Source: Auraticoccus cholistanensis (GTDB lineage Bacteria; Actinomycetota; Actinomycetes; Propionibacteriales; Propionibacteriaceae). Taken from it: DNA of 64,000 nt. Shown here piece after piece: positions 25,368-40,645 of this stretch (positions are counted from its first letter, which is position 1; the number at the start of each line of letters is the position of its first letter). Where the stretch lies: positions 7,613-71,612 of the forward strand of contig NZ_WPCU01000009.1 of NCBI RefSeq assembly GCF_009742705.1. Reading direction: 5' to 3'. A model generated the notes under the pieces. The model did not search any database. It saw nothing but the letters and a program-made list of their open reading frames with translations, and had not been told where the DNA came from. Both the position numbers and the translations under genes were made by a program.

Positions 25368-26741
25368 TCAGGCCGGGACGGCGATCTTCTCCTGGCTGGC
25401 GCTGTCGCTCGGGTCGCGGTCGACCTCGATCGAGCTGACGTTGGCCGAGTTGTAGACCTGCTCGTCCAACAGGCCGTTGCGCTTGGCCACGATGAGCGGC
25501 ACCAGGGCCTGGCCGGCCACGTTGGTGGCGGTCCGCATCATGTCCAGGATCGGGTCGATGGCCAGCAGCAGACCCACGCCCTCCAGCGGCAGACCCAGCG
25601 TGGACAGGGTCAGGGTCAGCATCACCACGGCGCCGGTCAGGCCGGCGGTGGCCGCCGAGCCCACGACCGAGACGAAGGCGATCAGCAGGTACTGCGGCAG
25701 CCCCAGCTCGATGCCGAACAGCTGGGCGACGGTGATGGCGGCCAGCGCCGGGTAGATGGCGGCGCAGCCGTCCATCTTGGTGGTGGCGCCGAAGGGCACC
25801 GCGAAGGAGGCGTAGTCCGGCGAGACACCCAGGTTCCGGGTGACGACCCGCTGGGTCAGCGGCAGGGTGCCGACCGAGGAGCGGGAGACGAAGGCGAACT
25901 GGATGGCCGGCCAGGCACCGGCGAAGTAGCGCCGGGCGCTGAGACCGTGGGCCTTCACCAGCACCGGGTACAGCACGAAGAGCACGATCGCGCAGCCGAT
26001 GTAGACGTCGGCGGTGAAGACGGCGAGCGGGCCGATCAGGTCCCAGCCGTAGTTGGCGACCGCGCGCCCGATCAGGCCGGCGGTGCCGATGGGGGCGAGC
26101 CGGATGACCCACCACACCAGCTTCTGCACGATCTCGAGCACGCTGCGGTTGAAGGCGAGGAAGGGCTCGGCCTTCTCACCCACGGCCAGCGCCGCCGCGC
26201 CGAGGGCGATGCCGAGCACCACCAGCTGCAGCACGTTGAACGACAGCGAGACGCCGTCGTCGGAGCTGGAGGCCTGCAGACCCAGGATGTTGGCCGGCAC
26301 GATCGAGGAGAGGAAGTCCAGCCAGGTGCCCTGGGTGGAGGGGGCCTCGGCGCCGGCGGTGTCGATGGTGGCGCGGGCGCCGGGGTTGGTCAGCAGCCCG
26401 ATGGTGATGCCGATGACCACCGAGATCAGCGAGGTGATGGCGAACCACACCAGGGTCTGGACCGCCAGCCGGGCGGCGTTGGTGACCTGGCGCAGGTTGG
26501 CGATGGAGACGATGATCGCGGTCAGCACCAGCGGCACGACGATCACCCGCAGCAGGCTGACGAAGGTGCTGCCGACGGTGGAGAGCGTGGTGCTCAGCCA
26601 GTCGAGGGAGTAGGTGCGGGCCAGGAAGCCGAGCGCGATGCCGGCCACGAGGCCGAGCAGCACCTGGGCCCAGAAGGGGAACCGGGCGCGGCGGGGGGTG
26701 ACGCCCCGGTCCGCGGAGGGCTCCGTCACGGAGGTGGACAT
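25368..26741 (-). CDS. Dicarboxylate/amino acid:cation symporter (DAACS)
   Basis: A 457-residue transporter of the GltP/DctA/TcyP family, with about eight transmembrane helices and two re-entrant loops. HP1 carries VSRSSVGTLPLT, in place of the ASSAATLP of glutamate carriers. The TM7 motif reads KMDGCAAIYPALAAI instead of NMDGTALY. These variants resemble the cystine-type (TcyP) branch rather than canonical glutamate or C4-dicarboxylate carriers, so the substrate should be left open. TM8 (DPILDMMRTATNVAGQALVPLIVAKRNG) is intact. It is divergent from the downstream methyltransferase gene across a 527-bp gap. Confidence 0.88.
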   Translation of the reverse strand: MSTSVTEPSADRGVTPRRARFPFWAQVLLGLVAGIALGFLARTYSLDWLSTTLSTVGSTFVSLLRVIVVPLVLTAIIVSIANLRQVTNAARLAVQTLVWFAITSLISVVIGITIGLLTNPGARATIDTAGAEAPSTQGTWLDFLSSIVPANILGLQASSSDDGVSLSFNVLQLVVLGIALGAAALAVGEKAEPFLAFNRSVLEIVQKLVWWVIRLAPIGTAGLIGRAVANYGWDLIGPLAVFTADVYIGCAIVLFVLYPVLVKAHGLSARRYFAGAWPAIQFAFVSRSSVGTLPLTQRVVTRNLGVSPDYASFAVPFGATTKMDGCAAIYPALAAITVAQLFGIELGLPQYLLIAFVSVVGSAATAGLTGAVVMLTLTLSTLGLPLEGVGLLLAIDPILDMMRTATNVAGQALVPLIVAKRNGLLDEQVYNSANVSSIEVDRDPSDSASQEKIAVPA

Positions 26742-26981
26742 GAGGTGTGCCTTTCGAGAGCGGGGCACGTCGACGCCCACGATGTGCTGACGACGCAGCC
26801 CCAGAGCTGGAGGGGAGGGGTTGGAGAGGGGTGGGGTGGAGCCGTCAGGCCCGACAGCCGCTGCTGGCCACCAGGGCGAGGTCCACGTGGCGCCGCCGCC
26901 GCAGCGGCACCCACTTCCGTGTCATCACGCGAAGGCCAACCCGGCCCGCCCGGCCTCTATTCCCGCCCCACCCCGACAACC

Positions 26982-27212
26982 TGTATGTCGTCGTGGTCAC
27001 GGTCGGCGTGCCGCGGCGTGTCGCGCTGTACGGAGCCCATGGCGTACACGTCCTCAGGGGCGACGCCCGGGCACCGCGCGGCCGCGCCGTGAGCAGCGCG
27101 GTCCGGGCACGCGGGCCGGGTGGCGGGTGCTGCGCCCTGGGAACGTGTACGCCGACGCTCCCGGACACGACGACACGCCGCGACACGCCGACCGTGACCG
27201 CGACGACATACA
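26982..27212. repeat. Large imperfect palindrome, ~79-bp arms
   Basis: The arms 26982-27060 and 27134-27212 are reverse complements at roughly four of five positions. The outermost 42 bp differ at only two positions, and an inner 11-bp block (GGCGTACACGT) is exact. The spacer is about 73 bp. Weaker complementarity (CCCCACCCCG against GGGGTGGGGG) continues outside the arms. It lies between divergent genes, so it is not a simple terminator. It could be a structured RNA, a miniature repeat element or a large operator. Confidence 0.75.
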
Positions 27213-27255
27213 CGCGGGCGGGGTGGGGGTGGGGACGGCGGGGGCGGAGGTGGTC

Positions 27256-27261
27256 TAGGTT
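27256..27261 (+). promoter_or_regulatory. -10 box (TAGGTT) for leaderless methyltransferase mRNA
   Basis: TAGGTT is followed by GCCCGGC (7 nt) and then the ATG at 27269. Confidence 0.6.
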
Positions 27262-27268
27262 GCCCGGC

Positions 27269-28804
27269 ATGGTGCCCCGCCCCGAGGTGATCCGCCCCCC
27301 GCTGGAGGAGGTCGACCGGCTGCGCGACCGCTTCCTCGAGGTCGGGTGGCGCACCGACGACGTGCTGGGGCTGATCGGCGCCGCCGGCCAGGCCGGGCTG
27401 GGCCGCAACTCCACCGTGCCGGCCGAGCGGGCCCTCGCCGGCGACCGGTCGCCGCTGGCCACGCTGACCCGGCTCTGGCTGCTGCAGCGGGAGGTGGCCG
27501 AGGCGGACCTGCGGCGGGCGCTGGGTCCCAGCACCGACGACCTCCTCGCCGCCGGGTTGCTCGGGCTCGACGGCGACCGGGCCCGGGCGCTGGTGGACGT
27601 GCGCCCCTACGGCAGCGAGGACGACGGCGCCAGCGGCTGGCTGGTCTCGGACCTGACCCCGGGGCTGGACCAGCAGGTCGCCCCGATGCGGCCCGACTAC
27701 GTGCTGGGTGCTTCTCCGGCCTCCACCACGCTGGCCCAGCTGACCATCCGCCGGCCGGTCGGCCGCGCCTTGGACCTCGGCACCGGCTGCGGGGTGCAGA
27801 GCCTGCACCTGAGCCGGCACGCCGACAGCGTGGTCGCCACCGACCTGAACCCCCGCGCGCTCTCGCTCGCGGCGCTCACGCTGCGGCTGAGCGGGGCCCG
27901 CACCCCGGCGGGGGAGGAGGTGCAGCTGCGCGCCGGCGACCTCTACCAACCGGTCGCCGGCGAGCGCTTCGACCTGGTGGTCACCAACCCGCCGTACGTG
28001 ATGGCCCCGCCCTCGGGCTCGGGTGAGCGGCTGGTCTACCGCGAGGGCGCCCTGCCCGGTGACGAGCTGGTGCGCCGGGTGGTGACCGAGGGTGCGGCCC
28101 TGCTCGCCGACGGCGGCACCTGCCAGGTGCTGGCCAACTGGGCCCACGTCGCCGGGGAGCCCTGGCAGGAGCGGCTGGCCGGCTGGGTGGAGGGCACCGG
28201 CTGCGACCTCCTGGTGCTCCAGCGGGAGGTGCTGGACCCGGCGGAGTACGTCGAGCTGTGGCTGGCCGACGCCGGGCTCACCCGCGACCCCGCCTACCGG
28301 GACCGCTGCGATCAGTGGCTGGACTACTTCGAGGCGCTGGGCATCGAGGCGGTCGGGATGGGCTGGATCAGCGTCCACCGAGCCGGCCGCGACGTCCCGC
28401 AGGTACGCACCCTCGACTGGCCCCACGCCGTCGAGCAGCCGGTCGGCCCGGCCTTCGCCCGCCAGCAGCAGGGGCTCACCCTCTCGCTGCTGCCCGAGGA
28501 GGAGCTGCTGCTCCGGCGGTGGGCGCTGGCCCCCGACGTGGTCCAGGAGACGGTGGGCGCGCCCGGGGCGGCGGACCCCGAGCACATCGTGCTGCGCCAG
28601 CAGACCGGGTTCCGCTCCGCGCTGCGGGTGGACACCGCGGTGGCGGGCGTGCTGGGCGCCTGCGACGGCGAGCTGGCCCTCGGGGTCGTGCTGGACGCGG
28701 TGGCCAGCCTGCTGGAGCAGGACCCGGTCGCCACCCGCGCCCAGGTGCTGCCCGAGGTGCGCCGGGCGCTGGCCGACGGGCTGCTCAGCGAGCCGGTGCT
28801 GTGA
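27269..28804 (+). CDS. HemK-like class I SAM methyltransferase
   Basis: A 511-residue protein with an N-terminal helical domain (about residues 1-150). A Rossmann methyltransferase core follows: RALDLGTGCGVQSLHLSRHADSVVATDLN (motif I), then LVVTNPPYVM, the NPPY motif of N-methyltransferases such as HemK/PrmC and RsmC. The C-terminal ~190 residues are a family-specific domain. Homologues occur next to topA across Actinomycetota. The target (protein Gln, rRNA or DNA base) is not known. It could be a second PrmC-like enzyme, but the long extra domains argue for a separate family. Confidence 0.8.
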   Translation: MVPRPEVIRPPLEEVDRLRDRFLEVGWRTDDVLGLIGAAGQAGLGRNSTVPAERALAGDRSPLATLTRLWLLQREVAEADLRRALGPSTDDLLAAGLLGLDGDRARALVDVRPYGSEDDGASGWLVSDLTPGLDQQVAPMRPDYVLGASPASTTLAQLTIRRPVGRALDLGTGCGVQSLHLSRHADSVVATDLNPRALSLAALTLRLSGARTPAGEEVQLRAGDLYQPVAGERFDLVVTNPPYVMAPPSGSGERLVYREGALPGDELVRRVVTEGAALLADGGTCQVLANWAHVAGEPWQERLAGWVEGTGCDLLVLQREVLDPAEYVELWLADAGLTRDPAYRDRCDQWLDYFEALGIEAVGMGWISVHRAGRDVPQVRTLDWPHAVEQPVGPAFARQQQGLTLSLLPEEELLLRRWALAPDVVQETVGAPGAADPEHIVLRQQTGFRSALRVDTAVAGVLGACDGELALGVVLDAVASLLEQDPVATRAQVLPEVRRALADGLLSEPVL

Positions 28805-40569: not shown

Positions 40570-40645
40570 GCCGCCTTAGCTCAGATGGCAGAGCGACGCA
40601 CTCGTAATGCGTAGGTCTCGGGTTCGATTCCCGAAGGCGGCTCCA
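40570..40645 (+). tRNA. tRNA-Thr (anticodon CGT)
   Basis: A complete cloverleaf. The acceptor stem GCCGCCT/AGGCGGC (40570-40576 with 40635-40641), the D arm TAGCTCAGATGGCAGAGC and a 7-nt anticodon loop CTCGTAA (anticodon CGT, reading ACG) are visible. The T loop TTCGATT and an encoded CCA (40643-40645) complete it. The discriminator base is T. It is a single-copy, isolated tRNA gene between a terminator and the ANTAR gene. No integrase or att repeat is adjacent. Confidence 0.95.

Follow-up and report, generated by a model that had tools for sequence, protein, structure and literature searches.

An intergenic palindromic repeat found so far only in three related soil-type bacteria: spacers in whole helical turns suggest a protein that holds the two arms across a short DNA loop

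Palindromes dispersed over intergenic regions are common, and they are often taken for RNA or for single-strand hairpins. ERIC, MIRU and similar intergenic repeats share the size range of the element analyzed here, and ERIC is palindromic. REP doublets (REPINs) and BIMEs are presented in PMC3116915 and PMC3733652 as extragenic, dispersed elements that occur as pairs of inverted units with a spacer and as single units. The same sources speak of many families of 20–100 units, with spacers of 20–100 bp whose sequence can differ. CGTC repeats are placed in five phyla in PMC3733652, Actinobacteria not being among them, and the word 'actinobacteria' is absent from the main text of that paper. A length that is periodic with the helix is described for the internal eliminated sequences of Paramecium, where it is read as looping in a transpososome-like complex (PMC3464196). 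The spacers described below are unrelated in sequence and yet differ in length by steps of 11.5 bp, a pattern that speaks for double-stranded DNA.

The palindrome and its arm module

The window, i.e. the whole analyzed stretch of 64,000 nucleotides from Auraticoccus cholistanensis, contains an imperfect palindrome between two genes to which an earlier note had drawn attention. The geometry given there was confirmed: the arms at 26982–27060 and 27134–27212 agree at 64 of 79 positions (81%), with two mismatches in the outer 42 bp. After mononucleotide shuffling of this intergenic stretch (200 sets), the highest match of any 79-bp pair at equal spacing was 45/79, and the RNA fold of 26960–27230 (−212.5 kcal/mol, z = −11.4) was matched by 0/200 shuffles. 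The conserved unit exceeds the 79 bp reported and amounts to 89 bp per arm once the outer CCCYG boxes are included. The palindrome thus comprises a left arm at 26971..27059 on the + strand (82.8 bits with our arm model R1), a 75-bp spacer at 27060..27134 and an inverted right arm at 27135..27223 on the − strand (82.2 bits), both arms being part of the 79-arm alignment A2. The spacer falls into a length class of 73–75 bp and is unrelated in sequence to other spacers. On their outer sides the arms are bordered by C-rich flanks, as judged from the flank composition of the 79 arms (C 0.69 and G 0.17 at positions −20 to −11); these lie at 26950..26970 (+) for the left arm and at 27224..27240 (−, G-rich on the + strand) for the right arm.

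Our gene caller also bore out the divergent flanking genes, namely a transporter gene of the sodium:dicarboxylate symporter family (PF00375) at 25368–26741 (−) and a gene at 27269–28804 (+), which we take to be methyltransferase-like from its NPPY motif. The near-identical open frames previously seen on both strands of the palindrome are present and are a consequence of its symmetry. When the arms were tested for synonymous change, a mild excess was apparent in one frame per strand (0.378 vs 0.285 and 0.320 vs 0.223), and the excess frames of the two strands share the same wobble position. A coding repeat was considered and rejected: the arms lie between called genes, and the synonymous excess is therefore read as site structure.

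Two observations concern the neighboring genes. A short open frame of 26 aa, MTRKWVPLRRRRHVDLALVASSGCRA, lies at 26845–26925 (−), upstream of the transporter gene, and frames with similar residues (VPLxRRRHxDLAL...GCR) are found at the same place in two related genomes, G001 and G015, when the alignment is read by eye; we assume that this frame may be an attenuator leader peptide. Near the ATG of the methyltransferase-like gene, at 27250–27271, we noted TCTAGGTT, which may be the −10 of a leaderless promoter; the corresponding position in G001 reads CCTAGGTT.

Each arm is built from CCCYG, 6 variable bases, TGTATGTCGTC, a middle part with two 10-bp direct repeats CGTGTCGCGG, GACGGCGTACAC and CAGGG; its ends are inverted half-sites, and GTCGTC occurs inside the arm and not as a terminal tag. 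Over 79 arms, 88.7% of the cells at the ends are complementary compared to 88.3% in shuffled columns, and 15–31 of 500 shuffles reach the observed pairing measures, indicative of a slight excess. A covariance analysis within the arm (79 arms) gave a score of 0.054, which lies inside the range obtained with slid partners (0.030–0.069), and the commonest changes break pairs (C-C in 25/79 arms at one pair, C-A in 17/79 at another). Since covariation does not go beyond these controls and pair-breaking changes are the commonest, the arm ends are kept as sequence more than as fold. The two arms of one copy differ in A. cholistanensis at 13.95 of 78 bases, compared to 13.78 between copies (matched or bettered in 3601/5000 permutations); in G001 the arms of a copy resemble each other slightly more than expected (17.9 vs 20.2 differences, 5/5000 permutations), which speaks against a complete independence of the two arms.

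These data bear on two proposals that had been made for the palindrome. A structured RNA is not supported, as there is neither an Rfam match at gathering score at the palindrome (the single match in the window being a tRNA at 40570–40642) nor covariation, and in their folding the spacers do not stand out from shuffled sequence (mean z 0.15, 29 spacers). The proposal of a large cruciform operator has to be divided: as a pairing structure it is not supported, the arms of a copy being no more alike than others in A. cholistanensis, although their slightly greater likeness in G001 speaks the other way; as an operator-like protein site it fits the helical phasing described below.

Dispersed copies and helically spaced arms

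That the palindrome could be a dispersed element was borne out by the genome-wide arm search that had been suggested, which revealed many copies on both strands of its own genome (G000; 3.8 Mb, 17 contigs; 30 loci) and further ones in G001, of the same genus (13 loci), and G015, of the same family (9 loci). We employed a gapped search with R1, a sequence-only model built from 79 arms picked by an earlier ungapped search; it recovered the same loci plus 3 more in G015 and 1 truncated arm. R1 yields 55 matches in G000, from which 3 reverse-strand echoes and one partial match of 26 bits were left out, giving 51 arms at the 30 loci. Twenty of these loci are two-armed (one with a truncated arm), 9 are single and 1 has 925 bp with a nuclease-like gene between its arms. 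G001 carries 23 arms, 10 of its loci being two-armed, and G015 has 10 matches and 1 two-armed locus. The full-length arms of G000 score 69–86 bits, and below them are found one truncated arm (42 bits) and the partial match already mentioned. The mean arm identity is 0.67 in G015 vs 0.82 in G000, and the G015 copies are mostly single. Single arms have a mean score of 101.5 (n = 9) compared to 108.0 for paired arms (n = 41, p = 0.09).

Arms were detected in 3 of the 198 genomes of the family that were searched (E ≤ 1e-8; the filters used miss weak matches), and the repeat is so far found in these three related bacteria. Plasmids and phages gave no arm match at E 1e-5. A 19-letter pattern (17 specified bases) occurs at 4 places in viral contigs; the best of them rescored at 22 bits over part of an arm, and therefore none is a full arm. 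Among open-licence papers, we found no literature on this repeat family.

The spacers of the two-armed copies in G000 measure 61, 62, 62, 63; 73, 75, 75; 84, 84, 85, 85, 86, 86, 87; 96, 96, 97, 99; and 107, 108 bp. Their period is 11.50 bp (n = 20, R = 0.851, bootstrap 95% 11.14–11.92), with 0/20,000 jittered sets as good, and an earlier fit on 19 copies had given 11.45 bp. According to PMC1762422, fits of lac repression in cells yielded 11.60 and 11.08 bp per turn, explained by negative supercoiling, and hence a step of 11.5 bp corresponds to roughly one turn of DNA that is underwound; an 11-bp period is described as typical for bacterial genomes in PMC4132750. In G001, with spacers of 83, 85, 104, 106, 116, 117, 118, 120, 125 and 141 bp, the period is weak (n = 10; p = 0.33 in a free scan of 5–25 bp, 0.059 within 10–12 bp), and with the phase fixed from G000 the p values are 0.018, 0.059 and 0.216 at periods of 11.0, 11.25 and 11.5 bp, respectively. 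The only spacer of G015 measures 106 bp. Site spacing in helical phase, as expected of DNA-looping sites, is thus present in G000 and weak in G001.

The spacer sequences are unrelated to each other. Among 406 pairs of 29 spacers, 315 weak matches were found vs 257–313 in 10 shuffled sets; ungapped identity was at most 0.56 compared to a shuffled maximum of up to 0.58, and spacers of the same length are not more alike than others (0.419 vs 0.410). Lengths in helical steps are what two bound sites touching across a short loop would leave, a pattern suggestive of a protein that holds the two arms together and bends the spacer into a loop.

We therefore favor, with a probability of roughly one half, a lineage-restricted two-armed element of REPIN/MITE-like type, whose protein-bound arms pair over a short DNA loop and which may serve mobility. 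Each 89-bp arm would be a putative protein-binding DNA module with two inverted half-sites around the 10-bp direct repeats. One predicted protein would bind both facing modules, and the bound modules would pair by looping the ~60–140 bp of indifferent DNA between them. For this pairing the two arms would have to lie on one side of the helix, which could be the reason why the observed spacers measure whole helical turns. As a purpose, synapsis between the two termini of a miniature mobile element that is served in trans would be the most likely, with a resident looping function as a close second. The data from the own genome support dispersal, helix-phased pairing and a constraint that acts on the DNA as a double strand; the binding protein, the loop and its service to mobility are what we infer.

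History of the sites, gene context and alternative explanations

The copy with 925 bp between its arms (L122) bears on the question of movement. It encloses a 289-codon gene (L122:4157-5026, +) exactly between two facing arms, and the right arm's CCCTG box contains the stop codon of this gene. The gene matches DUF559 with 23.7 bits (cut-off 20.6), and AbiEi_4 stays below its cut-off. G001 has a clean empty site at this position, where the convergent neighbors are 5 bp apart between their stop codons vs 1135 bp in G000; hence, the unit of arms and gene is present or absent as one. At this single clean empty site with its ancestral gap of 5 bp, no clear target-site duplication is apparent. Since relatives of the gene (44–47% identical) occur in all three genomes without arms within 1.5 kb, it may be cargo and not the mobilising enzyme.

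Flanks of 8 of the 9 G015 loci were compared to G000, and among the matches listed 3 clear shared sites were found (window/L023, L002/L155 and L113/L143), with the right-hand gene alone shared at L002/L155 and the weaker pair L107/L008 left out of the count. At each shared site, G000 has two arms and G015 one. The arms at these sites are 64–71% identical and rank 13, 38 and 41 of 50 among G000 arms, others of which match equally well or better; this may reflect either selection that holds each arm to the consensus or homogenisation within genomes. Between G000 and G001, no shared site was found in the 1.5-kb flanks among the matches listed, L114 and L129 sharing a gene and not the position. 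At L111, a separate copy (L128) is present in G001 within an interval of ~4.9 kb between the same two genes; in G015 this interval spans 12.4 kb and has no listed arm.

The locus of the window carries no arm in G001. As a separate observation, the orthologous intergenic site in G001 is occupied by another palindromic repeat, which is ~75 bp long and present there twice (L152; G001:C1:169807-169882, 169990-170065); this repeat has more matches elsewhere in G001 and none in G000 or G015. Viewed on their own, the loci L105, L108, L111 and L002 and their counterparts show a gene order beside the copies that is disrupted or enlarged in one or the other of G001 and G015, with an extra 3–12 kb or a missing neighbor. 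The L105 locus has a 3.1 kb interval in G001, and only one of the two neighbors of L108 was found in G001 and G015. The extra genes in the G001 intervals (L128 and the L105 locus) resemble ordinary enzymes and a regulator, judged by eye.

A tentative but possible alternative is a resident chromosomal site, at which a nucleoid or regulatory protein bridges the arms in place, the copies having spread long ago and being now immobile and kept by selection. Such a site fits the same helical phasing, the full-length G000 arms include no intermediate decayed copies, and the low rank of the orthologous arms is expected if arms are held to the consensus; homogenisation, however, would explain these ranks equally. 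It speaks against a resident site that few sites are common, with clear G000 counterparts for 3/8 compared G015 loci and none seen in the 1.5-kb flanks for G001, though one G001 copy does lie in an interval matching a G000 locus, and the L122 unit is missing as a block in G001. The arms kept in their old neighborhood at the three G015-shared sites suit a resident function as well. Against movement stand these arms at old sites, the unrelated spacers, which argue against copying of the whole two-armed unit, and the lack of a Y1/RAYT transposase (PF01797; 0/3 arm-carrying genomes, compared to matches in 5/14 control genomes). Because of the empty site and the low site sharing, we slightly prefer movement over resident function.

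The gene context of the copies was analyzed for 49 loci (30 of G000, 13 of G001 and 6 of the 9 of G015), with genes called by our own codon-usage script. By their neighbor genes, 32 loci are tandem, 11 convergent and 6 divergent, L122 being counted as tandem owing to its enclosed gene although its outer genes are convergent. The divergent setting of the window palindrome is therefore the rarer case. The element is extragenic; negative gaps occur at 3/49 loci, namely at L106, where a gene call runs through masked sequence, at L122, owing to the gene that it encloses, and at L142, with an overlap of 6 bp.

This context gives some weight to a bidirectional transcription terminator or RNA-stabilising hairpin 3′ of genes, which we nevertheless regard as unlikely. 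Of 79 arms, 49 face a gene 3′ end at a median distance of 42 bp, and where a single arm lies in a tandem gap, it has the direction of the genes in 11/13 cases (p = 0.022; 10/12, p = 0.039, without L125, which is two-armed with a truncated arm). In addition, the RNA fold predicted for the palindrome is very stable, and the arm units taken singly have better folds than their shuffled versions (mean z −2.3, first 60 arms). However, no T run follows the arms (T ≤ 0.19 at each of 32 positions), as would be expected for an intrinsic terminator, the pairing is without covariation beyond the slid controls, and helical phasing would have no role in an RNA hairpin. The 6/49 divergent loci, the window palindrome included, do not fit either. 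Moreover, the C-rich flank is equally strong at gene starts (C 0.577, n = 30) and gene ends (C 0.564, n = 49) and is hence part of the element.

It is highly improbable that the arms are a plain decaying repeat without function, whose length steps derive from a few ancestral length classes in one genome. The weak period in G001 and the mostly single, less alike copies in G015 would be in line with this, but it does not predict classes one helical turn apart, spacers of equal length are not more alike than others, and full-length arms stay near the consensus while the spacers are random. The palindrome is real, and a chance local inversion, as which the earlier note would have read a palindrome with no second copy and no conservation, can practically be discounted given its 30 loci in the own genome, the copies in relatives and shuffles that never come near the observed arm match.

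Comparison with known systems

For the two-armed element with protein-paired arms that we favor, confirmation would mean that the twist of DNA in a living actinobacterium can be read from the genome itself; the 89-bp arm could then serve as bait for finding the predicted protein directly. We consider it doubtful, and put forward with reserve, that this is a new class of actinobacterial miniature element with 89-bp nucleoprotein modules in place of hairpins at its ends, the second module arriving or surviving only at whole-helix spacing, and that a recombinase not yet described moves it, perhaps together with the DUF559/Vsr-like nuclease of one copy. If true, the genome would hold a natural helical-twist experiment.

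With ERIC and MIRU, the sequence relation was compared through the Rfam scan of the window alone, in which the tRNA was the only match. Like the internal eliminated sequences of Paramecium, the element has a helix-periodic length of DNA between two ends, which here would be paired; as described in PMC3464196, those sequences differ in being eukaryotic and single-copy, with a period of ~10.2 bp, tens of thousands of members and a known excision enzyme. It resembles MITEs as a short element with long terminal inverted repeats, here the 89-bp arms, and in that one larger copy has a gene, matching DUF559, between similar arms. Unlike in MITEs, the 29 spacers are unrelated between copies, no recognised transposase is linked to the arms, the family searched being Y1/RAYT, and no target-site duplication could be defined at the one clean empty site. 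From REPs and REPINs it differs by its unit of 89 bp with CCCYG/CAGGG ends, compared to 20–40 bp with a GTAG or CGTC tag in the REP literature compared, by the absence of a RAYT (Y1) transposase from the three arm-carrying genomes and of a hairpin kept by compensatory change, and by its helical-step spacer lengths, of which that literature makes no mention. In layout, REPs and REPINs are nevertheless the closest of the systems compared, since extragenic inverted doublets and singlets are found here too.
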